Shown here piece after piece: positions 3 through 26,362 of a stretch of DNA of 30,192 bases; the stretch's first letter is position 1, and every line of letters starts with the position of its first letter. Below the pieces are notes generated by a model. That model was not told where the DNA came from. It searched no databases and saw only the letters and a list, made by a program, of their open reading frames with translations. Source of the DNA: a virus; IMG/VR virus record IMGVR_UViG_3300025450_001518, positions 1-30,192 of that record, one strand, 5' to 3'. Position numbers and translations under genes: made by a program.

Positions 3-242
3 ACTTTCGGCGAAATTAGCCAAAAAGAAATAGTAATTCAAGCTGCAGCTCGTCAAAAGTATATTGATCAAGGTCAATCATTAAACCTAATGATTCCACC
101 TAACACTAAACCAAAAGATGTCAACGAACTAATAGTATTTGCTTGGGAAAACGGTATTAAGAGTCTTTACTATCAACGTTCAGCTAACCCTGCACAGGAG
201 CTTGCACGTTCAATACTATCTTGTGCTAGTTGTGAATCCTAA
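3..242 (+). CDS. nrdA: Ribonucleoside-diphosphate reductase, class I alpha subunit, C-terminal end (5' partial)
   Basis: The reading frame is open from the left edge and encodes 79 residues to a TAA. The family makes dNTPs from ribonucleotides. The fragment carries the alpha-subunit signature YIDQGQSLNL (about residues 20-29 of the fragment), the downstream YYQRSA segment (56-61), and a C-terminal swinging-arm cysteine pair CASC (74 and 77), which in class I enzymes passes electrons from thioredoxin or glutaredoxin to the active site. The active-site cysteines and glycyl/tyrosyl radical partners lie outside the window. The stop codon overlaps the next start by one base (TAATG), which suggests translational coupling with the iron-sulfur microprotein downstream. 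The family call is firm; the class I alpha assignment rests on the C-terminal signature only. Confidence 0.82.
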   Translation, partial: TFGEISQKEIVIQAAARQKYIDQGQSLNLMIPPNTKPKDVNELIVFAWENGIKSLYYQRSANPAQELARSILSCASCES

Positions 243-436
243 TGAGTCTTGAATTAGACGGCACACACTGTGTTTGCAATAACGTTTCATTTAAAGAGAT
301 TATACATCTTGTTGATAAACATGAAGATATAAAAACGATCGAAGATCTGCAGCAATATTGCCATTGTGCAGATAAATGTAGTTATTGTGAATCCGATGTA
401 CAAAAAATTATTGATCACTTTAAACACATTAGATAG
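242..436 (+). CDS. BFD-like [2Fe-2S] microprotein (64 aa)
   Basis: Cysteines at 10, 12, 46 and 49 form C-x-C-x33-C-x2-C, the ligand spacing of bacterioferritin-associated-ferredoxin (BFD-like) [2Fe-2S] domains. The intervening helix-rich segment with a TIEDLQ motif (32-37) resembles the usual T-x-E-x-L helix. Two further cysteines (40, 42) are present. At 64 residues it is the size of a free-standing BFD domain. Its ATG overlaps the stop of nrdA by one base, so the two are probably co-translated. BFD proteins transfer electrons, classically to reduce stored ferric iron. Inference: here the protein could serve iron or electron supply for the phage ribonucleotide reductase, as the unrelated ferredoxin YfaE does beside E. 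coli nrdAB. It could also serve an unrelated redox partner. Confidence 0.7.
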   Translation: MSLELDGTHCVCNNVSFKEIIHLVDKHEDIKTIEDLQQYCHCADKCSYCESDVQKIIDHFKHIR

Positions 437-450
437 TGGTAAGTACTTTT

Positions 451-1419
451 ATGAAAAAGTATTTCGTAGTAGCGTTGGCATCTTTATTCTTTGCAGGGTG
501 TGTTGGGTTTCCTAAATTAGGGTTTAAATTAAACCCTGACAAAGTTGACACCACTACATCTGCTGCAGCTGTAGTCAAAGCAGAAAATACAGTCAAGCAA
601 GTCGATCAAATGGCTGAAGCCAATAAAAAGGTTGATGATACACGCAATCAATTAGAATTACAGTATGCAAAATTTAGAGCTGATTTACAAAAAGCGTATG
701 ATGACGCTAAAAAGAAAGACGATGAAAACTTTGCTAAAATTGGAGCGCTAGATTACGGAATTTATATAGTTACTCAAGAGAAAAAGAAACAAGACATTAA
801 TACTCTTGTAGCTCATTTAAGAGCAAAAGAGATTTTAGCTCGAACAGATAAATTATCTGTAGAAGATAAAGCAAAAATAGCCAAAGAGGTAGATGATGAA
901 AAAACTAAGACAATTGATCAATTATATGAAAAGTATAACGCTAGTGTAGAGTTAGCTATTAGTCAAAAAGCTGATTTAGATAAAGCCGAGGCTCTTATAG
1001 AGCAAAAAGAAAAAGAAAAACAGCAAATTAGAGAAGAACAGCGTTTAACTATTAATAAACTAGAAGCTGAACAAAAAGCTCAATTAGAAAAAATTAAAAA
1101 AGATACTGCTGATCAAGTTGAAATTGCTAAAGCTAATCAAAAAGCAGAAATGCTTGGTTACATTATTAAAGCTTTAGTAGGTGTAGGTATTTTATTCTTA
1201 ATACTCGCAGTACTATTAAAGAGTGTGACTTTGGGTATCGGATGCTTAGCTTCTTTAGGTTTAGCCTATGTAGCTGCTACTATACCTATGTGGGTAGTAG
1301 GTGCTGTAATAGGTGGTTTAGTGCTATTAATGTTAATTAACGCTCACTATAAAGCTGTAAAGGATAAAATCACTAAACAGCAGGCACCACAATCTGTTCA
1401 GACGCCGACAGTTCAATAA
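451..1419 (+). CDS. Lipoprotein with long coiled coil and three C-terminal membrane helices (u-spanin-like topology)
   Basis: I place the start at ATG 451 rather than GTG 436 because it begins a clean signal peptide: MKK, a hydrophobic stretch and a lipobox ending FAGC with Cys17. Residues about 40-230 are charged, Lys/Glu/Gln-rich and heptad-like, indicating a long periplasmic coiled coil. Three hydrophobic helices follow at about 236-256, 259-278 and 281-297, with a short basic tail. Lysines after helix 1 and after helix 3 fit the positive-inside rule, with the C-terminus in the cytoplasm. An N-terminal lipid anchor plus C-terminal inner-membrane anchoring is the topology of unimolecular spanins, which fuse the membranes at lysis. 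This protein is, however, much longer (322 aa) than T1 gp11 and helical rather than beta. Superinfection exclusion is an alternative. The 3' end overlaps the convergent gene by 47 bases. Confidence 0.6.
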   Translation: MKKYFVVALASLFFAGCVGFPKLGFKLNPDKVDTTTSAAAVVKAENTVKQVDQMAEANKKVDDTRNQLELQYAKFRADLQKAYDDAKKKDDENFAKIGALDYGIYIVTQEKKKQDINTLVAHLRAKEILARTDKLSVEDKAKIAKEVDDEKTKTIDQLYEKYNASVELAISQKADLDKAEALIEQKEKEKQQIREEQRLTINKLEAEQKAQLEKIKKDTADQVEIAKANQKAEMLGYIIKALVGVGILFLILAVLLKSVTLGIGCLASLGLAYVAATIPMWVVGAVIGGLVLLMLINAHYKAVKDKITKQQAPQSVQTPTVQ

Positions 1420-1945
1420 CATTAGTTTCTACTGCTTTAGCTTTAGCCTTACCAGTTAATTGTGCTATAATTTCTTCTCTAGTAGCTACTAGTATGTTTG
1501 TTTGACCAGCTGGCAAGTTAAGATACCCATCATTTTTAAGTTTTTGTATTTCTTTCTTGCCTTCTATTTCAATTTTCTTAACCTCTTTAATGGTTTCAGC
1601 CTTTTTATGCTGTAAATGTATTTTATTAACTGTTTCTATAGCACCGGTACTTGCAGCAATTAAACTAGCCAAACCAGCCATCATTTCCGGGTCACCGGTA
1701 GCCACTGTCAATTTTTGTAATTCCATTATGCTTTTAACACTGTTTTCTACCAAACCTGCTGAGTGTTGCAACACAAAAGCTTGCATATCTTCTGGTGTTT
1801 TAGGTACATTAATTGGAATTGTAACTGTTTCAGAAGTTGCTTGTGGTTCCTCTTTAGTTATATTTAAACCGTCAATAAAATCATCTATTTGATCTATTAT
1901 CTGTTGATTATCTGATGGCTTATTATCCGGTAACGGAGGATTCAT
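1373..1945 (-). CDS. Putative small terminase subunit-like protein (gp16-like), 190 aa
   Basis: Encoded against its neighbours. Residues 1-50 are acidic and probably disordered, about 55-115 are helical, about 115-140 form a charged Lys/Glu coiled coil, and a short segment near 150-166 reads TNILVATREEIIAQL. A helical core, a coiled coil and a near-C-terminal N-x-x-V-x-T-x-E-x-x-x-x-L element resemble T4-type small terminase subunits, which end in a similar short motif and recognise DNA and regulate packaging. This resemblance is from memory and is weak. No large terminase is in the window, and a scaffold or other oligomeric helical protein is possible. The start ATG lies 6 bases after a CATAAATA late-promoter-like element. 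The last 47 bases overlap the lipoprotein gene on the opposite strand. Confidence 0.4.
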   Translation of the reverse strand: MNPPLPDNKPSDNQQIIDQIDDFIDGLNITKEEPQATSETVTIPINVPKTPEDMQAFVLQHSAGLVENSVKSIMELQKLTVATGDPEMMAGLASLIAASTGAIETVNKIHLQHKKAETIKEVKKIEIEGKKEIQKLKNDGYLNLPAGQTNILVATREEIIAQLTGKAKAKAVETNVIELSASEQIVVPAV

Positions 1946-10373: not shown

Positions 10374-12254
10374 ATGGCATTAGTAAAAGTAGATACATCA
10401 ATGTTAGTTAATAGCGCTGGTACCAGTGGTTACTCTGGTAAGAGTGGTTTTAGTGGTACCTACTCCGGTTACAGTGGTTATTCTGGCCCGGCAGGAGCAA
10501 ATGGTAGTAATGGAAACTCAGGTTGGTCTGGTTATTCTGGTAGATCAGGTATATCGGGTTGGTCTGGTTATTCTGGCTCGGGTACTTCTGGTTATTCTGG
10601 TACGTCAGGTTGGTCTGGATATAGTGGTTACTCTAGCTATTCCGGTTACAGCGGTTATTCAAGCTATTCTGGATATAGTGGTTATTCAAGCTATTCTGGA
10701 TATAGTGGTTACTCTAGTTACTCCGGTTATAGTGGCCCTAGCGGTTATTCAGGCTTTAGCGGACAAGTTGGAGCATCTGTTTATGGTAGAACATATTTTT
10801 TACAAGAGGTTAACAGCGATCAAAACCCTGCTTTATATGAAGTAATGGCTTTACAGCCAGGCGGTGGTGGCTCGACAATTAATGATGATTATGCTATAAT
10901 TACTTCTAGCGCCGGGGTGACTGCATTTGGTTGGTACCTAACACCAATTGGAGAACCGGGAGTGACAGAGATACCCGCTGGTTTGTGGGATGTTGAATTT
11001 TATCGTTATGTGCTGGGTGGTTCAGCAAATTTTGTATTTAGCATATATACATATTCAATGACCACTAGTTCTACTGGTACTTTTATTTTAAGTGCCGATA
11101 GTGGGGCAGTGAATGATACTACTTCTACGTATCAAAAAGTTTCTTACGCCACATCAAGTATTACTACTCTATCTTCTACTGACAGAATACTATTACAGGT
11201 TTCTGCTTATACGTCAAGCGTTTCACCAATTACAGCTGCCTATCAGTATAATGGTAGTTCAGTGTTTACAGTGGTACGTACACCTATAGGGCAAGGTGTT
11301 TCTGGGGCGTCCGGTTATTCAGGTATAGGTACATCCGGGTATAGTGGTATTTCAGGATTTAGTGGTTCAGGTGTTTCTGGTTACTCTGGTAAATCTGGGT
11401 ATTCAGGTATAGGTACATCTGGGTATAGTGGTATTAGTGGTTATTCTGGATGGAGCGGCATTTCAGGATTTAGTGGTTACTCCGGTTATAGCGGTATCTC
11501 TGGTTATAGCGGTATTTCTGGGTATTCCGGTTATAGTGGCATTTCTGGCTATAGCGGTATTTCAGGTTTTTCAGGTTATAGTGGACTCCCTGGTGCTTAT
11601 GCTGCTAGTGGTATTTCTGGGTATTCCGGTTATAGTGGTATTTCAGGGTATTCAGGTCAAGGAACTTCTGGTTACTCTGGTATATCGGGGTATAGCGGGT
11701 TTGGTGGTAATACAATACAAACCATTACTTTCTCAAATTCCTTTTCTGCCGGTCAAGTAGTTGCAAGAGCTTCTGGTGGTGGTAGTTATGTATTAGCAGA
11801 AGCAGATACTTCTTCCGATGCTGAAGCACTTGGCATTGTACAGTCTTCTACAGGTAGCACATTTACTATAGTATATCATGGTTATATTTCAGGTTTATCC
11901 GGTTTAACAGATGGTGCAGTCTACTTCTTATCGCCCACAAGTACAGGTACTCTAACATCTACAGCACCTGTAACAGTGGGGCAAGTTTCCAAACCAATGT
12001 TAGTAGCTACAAGTACAACTACCGGGGTGGTTGTAAACATGAGAGGTATAACAATAGCTTCTTCTTATGGTAGTATGTCGTTACAAAATGCAAACAATGT
12101 TAATATTACCGGCGGGGCAATAACTGGGGTAACATTGAGTGCTTCTAATATACTATTAAACAGTTCATTTGTAAACACTCCAGTTACCAATAACGGATAT
12201 ATTACAATACAAGATTCTTCTGGAAGTACTTATAAATTAATGGTTGGTAGTTAA
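10374..12254 (+). CDS. Tail-fibre-like protein with Gly-X-Ser repeat stalks (626 aa)
   Basis: Two long blocks of Gly-X-Ser triplets (X mostly Tyr, also Ile, Phe, Trp, Thr) at about residues 16-131 and 306-445 flank a beta-rich domain (132-305). A C-terminal domain (446-626) contains FSAGQVVARASGG, ALGIVQSS, YFLSPTSTG and VSKPMLVATSTTTG, a module common in marine phage fibres. Repeats of this kind are usually annotated as collagen-like, but proline is almost absent and the first block replaces Gly by Ser at regular points, so a true collagen helix is doubtful. Alternatives are a polyglycine-II or silk-like stalk. It starts the fibre/adhesin run, after the baseplate genes, and is likely a trimeric fibre. 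Confidence 0.8.
   Translation: MALVKVDTSMLVNSAGTSGYSGKSGFSGTYSGYSGYSGPAGANGSNGNSGWSGYSGRSGISGWSGYSGSGTSGYSGTSGWSGYSGYSSYSGYSGYSSYSGYSGYSSYSGYSGYSSYSGYSGPSGYSGFSGQVGASVYGRTYFLQEVNSDQNPALYEVMALQPGGGGSTINDDYAIITSSAGVTAFGWYLTPIGEPGVTEIPAGLWDVEFYRYVLGGSANFVFSIYTYSMTTSSTGTFILSADSGAVNDTTSTYQKVSYATSSITTLSSTDRILLQVSAYTSSVSPITAAYQYNGSSVFTVVRTPIGQGVSGASGYSGIGTSGYSGISGFSGSGVSGYSGKSGYSGIGTSGYSGISGYSGWSGISGFSGYSGYSGISGYSGISGYSGYSGISGYSGISGFSGYSGLPGAYAASGISGYSGYSGISGYSGQGTSGYSGISGYSGFGGNTIQTITFSNSFSAGQVVARASGGGSYVLAEADTSSDAEALGIVQSSTGSTFTIVYHGYISGLSGLTDGAVYFLSPTSTGTLTSTAPVTVGQVSKPMLVATSTTTGVVVNMRGITIASSYGSMSLQNANNVNITGGAITGVTLSASNILLNSSFVNTPVTNNGYITIQDSSGSTYKLMVGS
10419..10766 (+). repeat. Gly-X-Ser triplet repeat block 1
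   Basis: Codons 16-131 of the fibre gene encode Gly-X-Ser triplets, mainly GYS, with a short GPAGANGSNG break. The DNA copies are synonymous variants: serine uses both TCN and AGY codons, and Tyr and Gly codons vary too. Confidence 0.9.
10626..10733 (+). repeat. Four tandem 27-bp units encoding GYSSYSGYS
   Basis: Units at 10626-10652, 10653-10679, 10680-10706 and 10707-10733 all encode GYSSYSGYS. The two middle units are identical in DNA; the outer two are synonymous variants. The pattern indicates recent duplication of one 27-bp unit within an older array. Confidence 0.9.
11289..11708 (+). repeat. Gly-X-Ser triplet repeat block 2
   Basis: Codons 306-445 of the same fibre gene. Here the units are dominated by GYSGIS and GISGYS pairs with occasional GFS, GWS and GTS, and Gly at every third residue is better kept than in block 1 (short breaks such as GLPGAYAASG occur). 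Confidence 0.9.
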
Positions 12255-12280: not shown

Positions 12281-13780
12281 ATGGATACCGGTAATACAGT
12301 TGTAGATAGTTTTGCTACACAAGACCAAATAAATTCTGATTTAAATACTTTATCTCAGAAGTATTTAGGTAATAGCGAGTATCTACTTTCTAGTACAAGT
12401 ACTGGACTGATTTCTTCTAGCGTTATACCTATTGCTCCTTTTGCTAATTTAACAAACAGGTATTACCCTACAGTTGCACTTGCACCCCAATTAAACGAGA
12501 ACATTGTTACGAGCGATCAACTTGGTGGTTATTTTGTACCGAGTAATCTTGGTGCGTCAATCTATTTAACTAAAAATATAATATATAGTATTGACTCCAC
12601 TCAAGTAGCTATAGGTACAGGTTACAGATATATTGATCCAACACGTTTTAATAAAGGCTTTACGATAGGTAGTAGCAATCTTGATTCTAAAGTAGTAACT
12701 CATAACACCAATACCAACTGGATGAAAGCTATAGGTATATCAAACCTATATGACGGTACAGTTGTTAATACAGACACATTTCAAAAATTTGTTCCGTATC
12801 AGTCTTTTTATGAAACCACAAAATCTAGTAACAACGGTATAGTTACTGCAGAATATGATTTTGAATTTTGGGAAGGCCCTTATAAAAATATATGGAACCA
12901 AAATAATGGTGCTAACAGTTTAGATGAGTTTAATTACTTTAATTTAAATCAAAGAATAACCAATTTGGTGTTTACCCCAGGAAGAGAGCTTTACTCTTGG
13001 TGTACAGATGTGTTTGGTAATCAATACGGTTTATATAAACCGTTTACAAGACCATACAGTATGTATTCCATGGTTACTGCTACTGGAGCTTTGTGGACAA
13101 AAACAGTTGATGGTACTATTAACATAGGGCCATCTGCTTTAAATTTAATATATAATAACTACATATATGATAGTACAATTTATAGTCAATTAACTGCAAA
13201 CAATATTGTAAACTTTGAAGTGTTTTATGATACGTTAGTTATACAGCTTTCTAGTACTATATTGTACGAAAAGGTTACATTTGATTATAATACCTACACA
13301 ATACAAAAATCCCTACAAAACTATTTACCATTATCTGCCGGGTCTACAGCAAGTAATGCCATATTAACTAATTATTTTAATAGTAGTATAGGTAATCTTT
13401 CTCCTAATGCTGTAACTTATTATGGTGGTAATTGGTATGATGATATAAACAATAATATCACCATTTGTACGTTGGTTTCAAGCACTATAACAGGAGGCTC
13501 TACATCTATTATAGGTAACAACGGCCTTTCTAGTGTAGTTGTACCTGTATTGTATCGACTTGATCTTAACAATCCGAAAGATAGAACTAGAATTTATCCA
13601 ACAAACACTACCGACCCTAACGTATTTAAAGAGTATGTTTACCCACTAGGTACGGTAAGTTATATGGAAGCCCCTGTATTTTGTTATAACGAGGATACTC
13701 AAACTTACGTTATTACATTTATTAGTTTTCCATATCAAACTCAAAAATTAAACCTTATTACCTATAAAGTACAATATTAA
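12281..13780 (+). CDS. Virion structural protein of unknown function (499 aa)
   Basis: I do not recognise a family. The protein is rich in Asn, Thr, Tyr and Ser with low Lys/Glu, the composition of the neighbouring beta-structured tail proteins. There is no signal peptide, membrane helix or low-complexity stalk. The N-terminus (1-60) is helix-like, with a [11 protein letters not shown] segment that could trimerise or dock; the rest looks like repeated beta strands, including LVFTPGREL and YILQ-like elements similar in style to the last large gene of the region. It follows an exact TATAAATA element, so it may head its own late transcript. The next gene starts at its final stop base (TAATG). 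Fibre or fibre-attachment protein is the likely role. Confidence 0.65.
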
Positions 13781-15552
13781 TGTCTGTATTAGCATATAAT
13801 TTTCCGCAGCCAGATCAGGCCTCTCCATTGGTAACTTTAACAGGTTACTCTCCACTTACTGTTGTGTTTCAACCAAGCGCGATTAATTTTGGTAATGACA
13901 CTGTTGGAAGAATTACATATATATTATCAGCTTTTAACTTTCAAAAGGTTATAACGCGTAACTACACGTATAGTAGTTTACAAGACGCTCTTACAGGTGC
14001 AACTGCTGGTATTGATAGTAGAAGTAATTTCGTTTGGACATTTTATAATACAGCAAGTGGTACTTCTGTAACATCTGTAGTTGTATCGGCTACAATGTTT
14101 CCAAGTCTTACAGCTTATACATATAATCTATTAGTAGAAGCAGATTCTACATGGTTAACATATAACCCTATCGCTACAACACCTCAGGCTCCTGCTTCTT
14201 TTGATTCTGTTCATTTATTAAAAAATAGAGCATGGGGTACTAACAATAAGCAAATTATTGTTGCTGAAGGGTTATCTAACTATACAAATCAAGCATTTTT
14301 CTTTAACACTCAAGATCAAGCTGGTGTAGTAAATTATATTCCGTTATCTCCAAATATATCTCTTACTCCAACTCCGTCCATCACCCCTACTCTTACCCCT
14401 TCTTTAACACCTACAACTACACCGACTTTAACGCCAACTGCTACCCCGACTCATACCCCAACAGTAACACCTACATTTACGTCTACTCCAACGGTAACAC
14501 CTACTTCTACTCATACCCCTTCAGTTACTGTAACACCTTCAGTTACGAACACCCCAGCAGTAACGCCTACTATAAGTTTAACACCAGGTGCAACACCTAC
14601 AGTTACCCCGACCGTTACTTTCACTTCTACTCCAACGGTAACACCTACATATACACCTACAGTAACACCTACTATATCGTTAACACCTTCAGTAACATAT
14701 ACTCCTACATTAACCCCTACGAACAGCGTAACACCGGTTTCTACACCGCCTGCTTCTCCGACATCTACTCCAACACCTACACCACCGCCTTCTCAAACAG
14801 CTACTGCTACACCTACCCCTACTTTAACAGTAACACCAACCGGTACACCGGCCTCTACTCCTACTTCTACTCCGACTTCAACACCGCCAAGCACTCCTCC
14901 ATCAACACCTTCGCAAACACCTACTCAAACCCCTGGTTCTTCTGTAACGCCTTCTCATACACCACCAAGTACGCCGCCTAACACTCCTGCTTCAACACCG
15001 ACATCTACACCTACAAGAACACCTCCAAGTACCCCAGCTTCAACACCGACATCTACACCTACTTCTACCCCAGCAAGTACTCCAACTTCAACCCCAACTC
15101 CAACACCGGTACCTTCTAATACCCCAGCTTCTACACCACCTAACACACCACCTAGCACTCCTGATCCTACCCCAACCCCAGCTTCTACAACAACACCTAC
15201 TCCGTCCCCTGTATCCTTAACAGTTACAATGAGTACCGGGGATGCTATTGGTTCTTGTACTAACACTAATGAATGTACCGCAAGTACATCTAACTCTGTA
15301 AGCGTAGGAGGTGGTTCAGGTTCTTACACTTATAGTTGGTCTATAGACAACGGCAATATTAATATAGTTTCTCCTTCAAGTAGTTCTACAAGCTTTACTG
15401 CAGCAGTATTCTGTTGGGAATGCGGTGATACAGTACAGTATGGCACTGCTAGATGCGACGTTTACGATACAGTCTATGGTGTAACTGGAAGTGCTACATG
15501 TTCAGTGAACCTAGAAAACACTCGTACATATGGTAGTTGTACATGTTTATAA
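13780..15552 (+). CDS. Adhesin with Pro-Thr-rich stalk and Cys-rich C-terminal domain (590 aa)
   Basis: Three parts are visible. Residues 1-190 form a beta-rich N-terminal domain. Residues about 191-477 are an almost pure Pro/Thr/Ser stalk ([14 protein letters not shown]-like). Residues 478-590 form an Ig-like domain with a [14 protein letters not shown] turn and eight cysteines, which could form four disulphides outside the cell. The mucin-like stalk probably acts as an extended rod holding the C-terminal domain away from the virion, where it could bind a host surface ligand. Coupled by TAATG to the preceding gene. The disulphides and ligand role are inference. The reverse strand of the stalk is open by codon composition only and is not a gene. 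Confidence 0.75.
14350..15210 (+). repeat. Pro-Thr-rich low-complexity stalk, DNA repeat-rich
   Basis: About 287 codons of ACN and CCN with TCN. Short DNA words recur throughout, such as variants of tctacaccgacatctacacc. It is similar in composition to 16445-16666 and 23513-24031. Confidence 0.9.
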
Positions 15553-22426: not shown

Positions 22427-25400
22427 ATGGGTTCTGTAAGCTTATATAATAATAGTTCTACTTCAGGGGGTACACTTAGTAACTCTGTATCTATTCACTT
22501 TGATGATTATGTAGGATCTTACGGGGCTACCATTCTTAATAATATAGTAGTTACAAGTACTACTACTAGTTATGTAACAGATTCTTCAGAGTTTCCTAAT
22601 AACGCACAAGCTGTAGCATCTTTCGGTGGTTATACAGCAACGGATAATGAAAGTATTTATAGTTATAGCGTTGAAGCTACTGCTCAAGTAACGATTAATA
22701 ATTTAAGAAGACAGCCTAGCGGAGACTGGGTAGCAGATAGTGTTGTAGTAGCTCCTGGTGGAACGTATTACGGTGTCAATTTCGGTGGGGGTGTGACGGT
22801 TTCAGGTAATGCAACCCCTGAAGGTGGTATATATGGTTTTGATTCAGGTAGTTCTAACATATCTGCTACTGTAAGCTGGTCAACACCAGCTGCACCAACA
22901 ATTGCATGGGATGGTGGTAGTTTTCCTTCCAACTACACAGTCAATTCTGGTCAAACATATCGTCCAGGAGCCAATGCATATTCGGGTGCTAATGCATTAA
23001 TTGCTATATTAATTGACAAGTCTTACGATGGTGGTAGTACATGGGTACCGTGGGCAGAAGTCCCATATAGCTATGTTTCTTCGGCTGATAATACTGGTAA
23101 TAATTCTACTGATACCGGTTCTGGTAACACTACTGTATTATGGCGTGCTCAAGCGCAAGACTCTTATGGTCAAGTAACTACCATATATCAGACTATAAAC
23201 GTTAATGCTTACCCAACAGTTTCTTGGGGTACATTACCGAGTAGTTCTCCAGTAGTAGGCACTAGTTATAGTATTACAGCTAATGGTAGCGATATTGATA
23301 CAGCTTCTTGGGGTAGTATAGCTAGTACTGACATACAGGTATTATTTCCAGGATTCGGTAGTTATACAGATTTAGCAAACGACCCAGGCAGTACAGCAAG
23401 TTACAGTTCTACTTGGGATCATGGTACAGGTAATTACGTATTTAGGGCAAGTTCAACCGATAATAATGGGGCAACCAGTTCGTACATTTATTATACCGTT
23501 ACAGTAGTAGGCCCAACACCTACACCGACAGCTACTACAACACCAGCTGTAACGCCTACACCCACTAGCACGCCGGCATCAACACCGTCCCCTACCCCTA
23601 CTAGTACCCCGCGTGGTACGCCTCCTGCAACACCGACAGCTACACCTACTTCTACTCCGGCTTCTACACCACCTGCTACTCCGACTCCTTCGGTAACACC
23701 GCTGCCGTCTAATACGCCGGCTCCTACTGTTACCCCTGCAGCCACAGTAACCCCCACAAATACACCGTCTTATACTGTTACCCCTAGTGTTACTCTTACA
23801 CCTGGTATCACTCCTACTCCTACAAGTACTCCGACTAGTACTGTAACACCTACCCCTACTGTAACCCCACCACCTAGTGTTAGTGGTACACCTGGTGCAT
23901 CTCTTACTCCAACACCTACCCCTACAGGAACACCGGCAGTTACGCCTACCCCAACAGTAACTCCGGCTTCTACTCCTGGACCAACAGTAACTCCTACAAT
24001 TAGTATAACGCCTTCTGTTACACCTTCTACAGGTGTGCTGGCAGCTTATACGCCTTGGACAGTAGCTACAACAAATTCTCCAGTATGGGTACAGTCAGTG
24101 TATCCAATCAGTAAAAACGTTACAACTTATGGTATTAATTGGGGAGATGGTTCAGGTAATTCCTACTACGGTACACTTTCAGGTTATACATCATATACTT
24201 CTTTACCAAGTAGTAGCAATTTCTTTTTATACAATTATACATTACCTATATCAGCAAATATAGGCTACACAGTAACTGTTGCAGCTTTAGCAGGTATTGG
24301 TGGTGTGCCTCGTGTATTAACTAACAGGTTTTACATTGATGCTACTTTACCTACTTACTCAACAGTTAATTTTTATGACCCAACAATAGATACGCCTGTA
24401 TTACCGTGGAAATTAAACGATATTAAAATAGGTTCAAACGAATGGGCAGTAGCAGGTACCATAAACAATAGTTTACAAAAAATACAAGATAATTTTGACT
24501 ATTTACAAAGTGTATCTCAAATTCTTTCTCTTAATATTAATTTTAATTTAGTAGAGTGGACTGGTATTTTAAATCAAAGCAATACAACCCCTCTAACAGG
24601 GTATGCATGGAGAACAACTATACCTGGATTAAATGACGGCCTATTTAATACATATAATAGTGTAAGCGCAATAGGTTTTGCAGACGGTACTGTAAAAGAC
24701 TTTAAATCTTATAGATTTACAAACAATTCAGCTCCGGATTACTATAATTATATTGCGTTTGCTGGGTTAGGTAGTAACCCTGACTACATACAGGTACGTA
24801 CTAATGACTATTACAACACTTTAGTATTGAGTGCAGCAAATATTGGTAGTTTTAACATGCCTAAGTTTAATAGCTTAAGCGCTATTGATTCTTATAATGA
24901 TGAACTTTTCATACTTGACACAGATACAGTATACAAGGTCGATCTTAACATAAACGACGGCATATTAACCCCTATTGCCCAAGTAGGTGGAGAGTATGGT
25001 ACAAGAAGTAATAATATAGGTTTCAATAACCCTGTAGAAATTAAAGCTTGGAACGCTAAAATTTATGTAGCGGATAGCAATAACAGCTGTGTTAAAGTTT
25101 ACAACACCGCACTAGGTTGGTTAAGTACTCTTTACACAAGTCTATTAAGTGCATATAGTGTACAACGTATTGAAGTAAATAGAGCCAACGAACACGTATT
25201 TGTATTGGCGCAAACATTTGCTCCGGTGCCACCTATTGTAACGTATTCTACAACCATATCTGCTTCTTCTGCAACAGGTAACATGTATCAAATTAACTTT
25301 GTACATGACGGTTTAAGACTAAATGATATTACATCATCTGGTATCAGTAATTCGTTTACTTTATATGGCTTAATTTCTGGTGGTACATATTATTCCCCAT

Positions 25401-26362
25401 TAACAGGCGCCATTTGGTCTAATGCAAGTTTACCGTATCAGCAATATGGTTCTATACCAGATACACAAACAGTTAAGTATGCCGCAGCATCTGGTTTAAA
25501 TTATACAAACTTTGCTGTACAAGCTATAGGTTTAAGTGGGTTTAATTCAGCGCTTTCTAACGGTACTCCTACACCAAACATATATGCTTTTAAATCTCCG
25601 TATGCTATATTTGAGTTAGATCAAAAGAGTAATCTAATTAATGCTTTCCCTGTACCAAACAACACTGCTTATATTTTACCTTCAGGTAACATACAATCAA
25701 ATGATGTTATTAACAAAATGGTAATTGATCCAACCGGTGCGTTTCTTTATTTAATTACCCCTTATTACATATACAAATATCTTACAACAGGTAAAGCGCT
25801 TAACAAAATAGTATTCCCAGACTTTGATACTTTAGGTGGTTTTGAATATCTAAAAACTGGGTTTATTGATGACCGGTTAAACTTTTTCTTAGCTACTAAT
25901 ACTAGAATATTCAAATTTGTTGATTTACCTACAACTCTTAATCTGTACGATACAATAGGAGTTAGTGCTTTGTTTACGCCTTTATCTGCTTGTTTAATTG
26001 ATAGTAATGAATTTATACAAGACTGGGTTTATAATAAGAGCTTGTTGCGCATTATTCAAAACCATGAAATACTTTATAAAGCAATTGAAGGAAAGTATTA
26101 CATTAATCTTGATAGTAACGGCAATCTTATTATACCTAATACAAGTACAACAAGTATATGTTTAACTTCATTTGTGCCTTCAGATATATCTGAAGTGTTC
26201 TCTATAAACGATAGTTATTTTGTACACAGTAACGAATTAGTTACTAGTGATGTAATTAACCGTACGTTAACAAACATATATATTTTACAAAACGATATAC
26301 TTAATTTGGTTACACCGAAAAAAGTAAAAGCTTTACCGAGCTATACTAGCAACAACCTTTAA
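22427..26362 (+). CDS. Giant adhesin with Ig-like domains, Pro-Thr stalk and NHL-like propeller (1311 aa)
   Basis: Order: beta N-terminal region (1-155); two Ig/FN3-like domains (about 156-360, with WDGGSFPSNYTV and DSYGQVTTIYQTINV strands); a Pro-Thr stalk (363-535); an Ig/PKD-like domain (about 540-640, INWGDGSGNSYYG); then a long C-terminal part in which NHL-type blades are seen, for example YNDELFILDTDTVYKVDL and AKIYVADSNNSCVKVYN near 810-900, and a similar blade near 1095-1130. The propeller may bind a host polymer at the end of the stalk. It is the largest gene of the window and closes the adhesin run; its last 4 bases overlap the minus-strand gene. The Pro-Thr stalk resembles those of the genes at 13780 and 16151. 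Confidence 0.75.
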   Translation: MGSVSLYNNSSTSGGTLSNSVSIHFDDYVGSYGATILNNIVVTSTTTSYVTDSSEFPNNAQAVASFGGYTATDNESIYSYSVEATAQVTINNLRRQPSGDWVADSVVVAPGGTYYGVNFGGGVTVSGNATPEGGIYGFDSGSSNISATVSWSTPAAPTIAWDGGSFPSNYTVNSGQTYRPGANAYSGANALIAILIDKSYDGGSTWVPWAEVPYSYVSSADNTGNNSTDTGSGNTTVLWRAQAQDSYGQVTTIYQTINVNAYPTVSWGTLPSSSPVVGTSYSITANGSDIDTASWGSIASTDIQVLFPGFGSYTDLANDPGSTASYSSTWDHGTGNYVFRASSTDNNGATSSYIYYTVTVVGPTPTPTATTTPAVTPTPTSTPASTPSPTPTSTPRGTPPATPTATPTSTPASTPPATPTPSVTPLPSNTPAPTVTPAATVTPTNTPSYTVTPSVTLTPGITPTPTSTPTSTVTPTPTVTPPPSVSGTPGASLTPTPTPTGTPAVTPTPTVTPASTPGPTVTPTISITPSVTPSTGVLAAYTPWTVATTNSPVWVQSVYPISKNVTTYGINWGDGSGNSYYGTLSGYTSYTSLPSSSNFFLYNYTLPISANIGYTVTVAALAGIGGVPRVLTNRFYIDATLPTYSTVNFYDPTIDTPVLPWKLNDIKIGSNEWAVAGTINNSLQKIQDNFDYLQSVSQILSLNINFNLVEWTGILNQSNTTPLTGYAWRTTIPGLNDGLFNTYNSVSAIGFADGTVKDFKSYRFTNNSAPDYYNYIAFAGLGSNPDYIQVRTNDYYNTLVLSAANIGSFNMPKFNSLSAIDSYNDELFILDTDTVYKVDLNINDGILTPIAQVGGEYGTRSNNIGFNNPVEIKAWNAKIYVADSNNSCVKVYNTALGWLSTLYTSLLSAYSVQRIEVNRANEHVFVLAQTFAPVPPIVTYSTTISASSATGNMYQINFVHDGLRLNDITSSGISNSFTLYGLISGGTYYSPLTGAIWSNASLPYQQYGSIPDTQTVKYAAASGLNYTNFAVQAIGLSGFNSALSNGTPTPNIYAFKSPYAIFELDQKSNLINAFPVPNNTAYILPSGNIQSNDVINKMVIDPTGAFLYLITPYYIYKYLTTGKALNKIVFPDFDTLGGFEYLKTGFIDDRLNFFLATNTRIFKFVDLPTTLNLYDTIGVSALFTPLSACLIDSNEFIQDWVYNKSLLRIIQNHEILYKAIEGKYYINLDSNGNLIIPNTSTTSICLTSFVPSDISEVFSINDSYFVHSNELVTSDVINRTLTNIYILQNDILNLVTPKKVKALPSYTSNNL
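23513..24031 (+). repeat. Pro-Thr-rich stalk of the giant adhesin
   Basis: About 173 codons of ACN/CCN/GTN/TCN. The reverse strand is open by composition (Gly/Val-rich) and should not be read as a gene. Confidence 0.9.

Follow-up and report, generated by a model that had tools for sequence, protein, structure and literature searches.

The window analysed here (IMG/VR record IMGVR_UViG_3300025450_001518, 30,192 bases in full) is, as read from its gene content, a fragment of a T4-like phage. It carries the end of a ribonucleotide reductase gene (from sequence) and genes for a BFD-type [2Fe-2S] protein, the lipoprotein studied here, a convergent 190-aa product and a dUTPase, together with those for a gp44-type clamp loader, gp25, a gp6-type baseplate protein and long fibres (Table 1). 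Since the best named matches of the clamp loader reach only about 38% identity, the phage group is distant from cultured phages. The convergent 190-aa gene has no named-phage match, and no Pfam match was obtained for a 117-aa membrane protein near the end of the window.

Table 1. Features in and around the lipoprotein gene, in window positions.
Feature	Positions	Strand	Basis or remark
BFD-like [2Fe-2S] protein	242-436		directly after the ribonucleotide reductase gene
Late-promoter-like motif [GAT]TAA[AG]TA, here GTAAGTA	439-445	+	12 nt before the lipoprotein ATG
Lipoprotein gene, 322 aa	451-1419 (stop included)	+	ATG at 451 common to homologues
Signal peptide, residues 1-16	451-498	+	lipobox scan, alignment
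Lipobox FAGC, Cys17 the predicted lipidation site	490-501	+	invariant in 45 sequences
Variable Pro-containing linker, residues 18-33	502-549	+	predicted disordered (pLDDT <50); conservation 0.39
Long helix 1, residues 34-109	550-777	+	AlphaFold
Conserved helical cap, residues 110-154	778-912	+	alignment; YGIYxVTQEKKKxDxNTxIAHLRxKE just at its start
Long helix 2, periplasmic part, residues 155-237	913-1161	+	AlphaFold
Membrane helix 1, residues 238-256	1162-1218	+	AlphaFold, alignment-wide topology
Membrane helix 2, residues 259-277	1225-1281	+	AlphaFold, alignment-wide topology; weakest of the three
Membrane helix 3, residues 280-300	1288-1350	+	AlphaFold, alignment-wide topology
Lys-rich tail, residues 301-322, predicted cytoplasmic	1351-1416	+	loop-charge analysis
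Convergent 190-aa gene, function unassigned	1373-1945	-	marker for the conserved neighbourhood
Fibre-like genes	10374-12254, 13780-15552, 22427-26362		long GYSGYSG and TPTPTP repeats
117-aa protein with several predicted membrane helices	27823-28176		kept in relatives; possible holin

The first-pass annotation had described an N-terminal lipobox, a coiled coil of about 190 residues and, at the C-terminus, three membrane helices with positive-inside topology. This anatomy was partly confirmed, with a correction concerning the coiled coil. The lipobox Cys is present in all 45 aligned family members, and three membrane helices were predicted by AlphaFold, of which the second is weak and, in roughly half of the members, does not reach the cut-off applied. 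Lys occurs in the loop between the first and second helices, none or Glu in the next loop, and the tail is Lys-rich; these charges agree with the three-helix topology and fit an N-out/C-in orientation. About 190 residues are indeed predicted to be helical, but heptad-like periodicity is marginal for residues 38-100 (P 0.026, uncorrected) and absent for residues 155-236 (P 0.64). Mono-shuffled DNA yielded one lipobox-ORF in 160 kb and the architecture is kept down to 25% identity, which excludes a chance origin.

Relatives were found on roughly 90 IMG/VR contigs, including ones of 297,258, 122,736 and 119,783 bases, and none among INPHARED phages, PLSDB plasmids or, by pattern scan, GTDB species genomes. 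The family is an unnamed, phage-only one from uncultured freshwater T4-like phages. The alignment of 45 members, with identity as low as 25%, contains 12 invariant columns, the lipobox Cys among them. Since the signal peptides around this Cys diverge (conservation only 0.48), the residue is taken to be kept by selection. The periplasmic part, measured from the Cys to the first membrane helix, always has 215-236 residues and carries no Cys in any of the 45 aligned sequences, and the C-terminal membrane anchor is present in every complete member. At position +2 after the lipobox Cys, Asp was never observed (0/45), and Pro or Gly occurs in 5/45. By the E. coli sorting rule, the lack of Asp at +2 fits outer-membrane sorting, while Pro or Gly at this position can hold lipoproteins in the inner membrane.

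Described u-spanins, that is, T1 gp11 and 12 further families (PMC6139136), have one C-terminal helix, a beta-rich periplasmic domain without Cys and N-out/C-in topology (PMC6139136, PMC7830690). The lipoprotein shares with them the N-terminal lipobox, the N-out/C-in orientation, the C-terminal membrane anchor and the Cys-free periplasmic part. It differs in size (322 aa against 133 aa for T1 gp11, for which the same script gave lipobox LSGC22 and a membrane helix at 107-125), in having three membrane helices, two strong and one weak, instead of one, and in a long helical rod in place of the beta-rich domain. The u-spanin plan suggested in the first-pass annotation was therefore partly supported: the lipid, the Cys-free periplasmic part, the C-terminal anchor and the topology stand, whereas the single helix and the beta-rich domain do not. 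Since these two features of the described families are lacking, the protein was not filed as a u-spanin member, and the interpretation is plausible but unproven.

The best explanation, which we put forward tentatively, is a u-spanin-like lysis protein of new architecture. The signal peptide would be cut at Cys17 and the N-terminus lipidated, as judged from the sequence; the lipid would then go to the outer membrane and the three C-terminal helices would remain in the inner membrane. Until lysis, the helices would stand stretched out across the cell wall. If the protein follows the spanin model, cutting of the wall by the endolysin would let the chain fold into the predicted helical hairpin, bringing the lipidated terminus to the inner-membrane anchor so that the membranes fuse or tear. 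This spanin-like reading is supported by the conserved lipobox, the constant length of the Cys-free periplasmic part, the anchor and the topology, and by the lack of Asp at +2 in the 45 members. An envelope tether or lysis-timing protein, which late in infection would join inner and outer membranes rather than destroy them, would have the same topology and would also suit the very constant periplasmic length; it has no direct support, we know of no phage precedent for such a role, and it is considered quite improbable.

AlphaFold was uninformative with 19 close sequences (pLDDT 58.6); with 45 diverse sequences, pLDDT was 78 overall and >90 for much of residues 60-200. Helices were predicted at 34-109, 116-132, 137-150, 155-256, 259-277 and 280-309, so that residues 34-256 are helical save for short turns. 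The two long helices, about 11.4 and 12.5 nm at a rise of 0.15 nm per residue, are similar in length and are joined by a small helical cap; this pattern, read without coordinates, suggests a long antiparallel hairpin. The Foldseek analogues, all non-significant with a best E of 0.13, include several such hairpins (EnvC, SMC arms, chemoreceptors, RipA and PcsB). Together with the predicted helix-cap-helix order, they lend some support to the spanin-like lysis reading. In the hairpin state, residue 34 would be close to the inner membrane, and a linker of 16 residues would be too short to reach the outer one. The lipid and the membrane helices would thus be placed at the same end, and the hairpin itself would not bridge the envelope. 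The distance between inner and outer membranes in E. coli is 20-25 nm, which the opened chain could span.

The main uncertainty is whether the predicted fold represents the collapsed state of a fusogen or a resting inner-membrane stalk. The stalk is the main rival and is judged rather unlikely: lipid and three helices would both sit in the inner membrane, with the hairpin projecting about 12 nm into the periplasm, where its cap would bind a wall enzyme, a porin or the DNA-entry machinery of an incoming phage as partner. The function would be envelope remodelling or superinfection exclusion, the latter being the alternative named in the first-pass annotation. The hairpin-like pattern with its cap suits it, since both anchors would be set at one membrane, and this weakens the spanin-like reading. 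The same holds for conservation, which is highest in the cap region (residues 99-153, 0.71), a part needless for a simple fusogen. EnvC, PcsB and RipA, periplasmic or extracytoplasmic helical hairpins among the top Foldseek analogues, resemble the stalk as well, although the likeness is not significant and these proteins have neither the lipid nor the triple-helix anchor. The five members with Pro or Gly at +2 could be retained in the inner membrane, but the absence of Asp there in all 45 speaks against the stalk. As to exclusion, strict conservation within a clade is unusual for exclusion genes, and homology to the Cor superinfection exclusion family was rejected because the weak match (phrog_1119, E 0.0036) covers residues 1-33 only, that is, the signal peptide region and not the mature protein.

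The lipoprotein gene was found in three gene contexts. In context A, that of the window, it follows nrdA and the BFD gene and precedes the dUTPase and gp44 genes; in context B, its neighbours are non-tail genes, one of them coding for 121 aa; and in context C, seen in jumbo relatives, it lies between tail-tube-like genes and a tape-measure-like gene. No lysis gene was recognised among its neighbours in any of the three. The convergent 190-aa gene served as an independent marker of gene retention, informative on context A only. The lipoprotein gene adjoins it at 48/48 testable loci, with some copies only about 30% identical, and two marker loci without the gene, having 352 and 0 bases of room, were set aside. 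This adjacency indicates that the lipoprotein gene is core, not accessory, within the context-A clade.

The motif [GAT]TAA[AG]TA, which resembles the T4 late promoter, occurs 9-20 nt upstream of 38/139 gene starts in relative G016 (1.5 expected), with many structural genes among them, and precedes 6/29 window genes (0.4 expected). It also precedes a lysozyme-like gene. The listed copies of the lipoprotein gene in contexts A and B carry it, and those in context C do not; there the gene probably belongs to the tail operon. The core status of the gene and a motif common to structural and lysozyme genes support the spanin-like lysis reading, which is in turn weakened by the place in the tail operon of jumbo relatives. 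A virion-assembly or tail-related membrane factor, for instance a scaffold for tail or head assembly, would account for that place and for the late-promoter-like motif elsewhere, but the gene stands away from tail genes in the two other contexts and a lipidated three-helix membrane protein would be an odd assembly part, making this alternative improbable. Separately, in the window and in G016, G014 and G002 the motif stands only about 12-15 nt before many starts, a spacing at which late transcripts might have no leader or almost none.

Lipoprotein signals were scanned for in all frames of 11 contigs (937 kb), most of them fragments and some near-identical to each other. The lipoprotein gene was present in 11/11. 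Apart from it, the scan gave only three credible lipoproteins: in the 297-kb relative (G017), CsgG and a glycine-zipper protein of 147 aa, and in G024, a Pro-rich protein of 93 aa. The last (81878-82159) was rejected as an o-spanin, having no i-spanin-like partner nearby. No lipoprotein with an adjacent i-spanin was recognised in the parts read, which supports the spanin-like lysis reading but is suggestive only, because most contigs are fragments. In addition, the G009 (29103-30626; L050/L051) and G017 (226509-228077) contigs encode proteins of 507 and 522 aa, which combine membrane helices at the N-terminus with long coiled-coil-like stretches and a further membrane helix near 387-405.

Lysozyme-like genes stand alone, away from the lipoprotein gene. 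The annotations of their named relatives include baseplate tail lysozyme as well as lysozyme, so these genes may not encode the endolysin. The 297-kb relative carries a weak LydA-type holin match and a lysozyme-like protein, both elsewhere in the contig, as well as CsgF (E 2.8e-13) and the curli pore CsgG (E 2.2e-50) at G017 78125-80243 (L083:2125-4243), which makes a diderm host likely. These elements are likewise in favour of the spanin-like lysis reading. The CsgF/CsgG genes are followed by a gene with curlin-like repeats, as seen by eye.

Homology searches with the lipoprotein gave no family match above the cut-offs of Pfam, PHROGs and NCBIfam, and nothing significant by sequence against PDB or with Foldseek against PDB and BFVD. 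A tape-measure match (E 0.00023) was discarded, being confined to the charged helices of one member and not family-wide. A BLAST match to T1 gp11 (E 0.006 against the single sequence, 59 residues of signal and linker) was attributed to composition, not homology. Matches to PHROG 'spanin' families reach E 0.0012 at best and fall on the signal peptide or a charged helix; their weakness counts against the spanin-like lysis reading.

Assignment to class I holins by Pfam failed as well, Phage_holin_3_6 reaching 17.2 bits against a cut-off of 28.4. The protein resembles class I holins in its three C-terminal helices, N-out/C-in topology and Lys-rich tail, but here a 220-residue lipoprotein rod precedes the helices. 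A fused holin and spanin, in which the three-helix C-terminus makes the inner-membrane hole and the remainder disrupts the outer membrane, would explain these likenesses and the weak Phage_holin_3_6 match (E 0.0055) in 3/20 members. However, other membrane families match equally well or better and a holin-like protein is encoded separately in the 297-kb relative, so this alternative is very unlikely.

Compared with two-component spanins (lambda Rz/Rz1, T4 PseT.2/PseT.3), the lipoprotein is alike in its long helical periplasmic segments, interrupted as they are in Rz, and in its Pro-containing linker after the lipid. Unlike them, it joins both anchors in one chain, has no periplasmic Cys and carries its membrane helices at the C-terminus and not at the N-terminus. 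The gene also lies outside any lysis cassette, while the link of u-spanins to holin and endolysin genes is common, not universal. The three helices, the helical rod and the lack of adjacent lysis genes weaken the spanin-like lysis reading, as does the existence of T4-like phages (cyanophages) with no recognised spanin at all. In the most far-reaching form of that reading, which we regard as doubtful, the protein would be the first unimolecular spanin that is both all-helical and multi-pass, retained as a core gene by a large uncultured T4-like clade. It would correspond, in phages, to the class I viral fusion proteins: the helix that bears the lipid would fold onto the one anchored in the membrane and so fuse inner and outer membranes.

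In a survey of Gram-negative phages that considered no other topologies, about 13% lacked a recognised spanin, T4-like cyanophages and further large phages making up many of these (PMC6139136). A conserved helical single-chain candidate in a T4-like clade would offer one answer to how such phages open the outer membrane. Three helices and a long helical periplasmic part constitute an architecture that is new relative to described u-spanins. If the protein is spanin-like, a single chain with a predicted hairpin would provide a simple system for testing the folding-driven fusion model.
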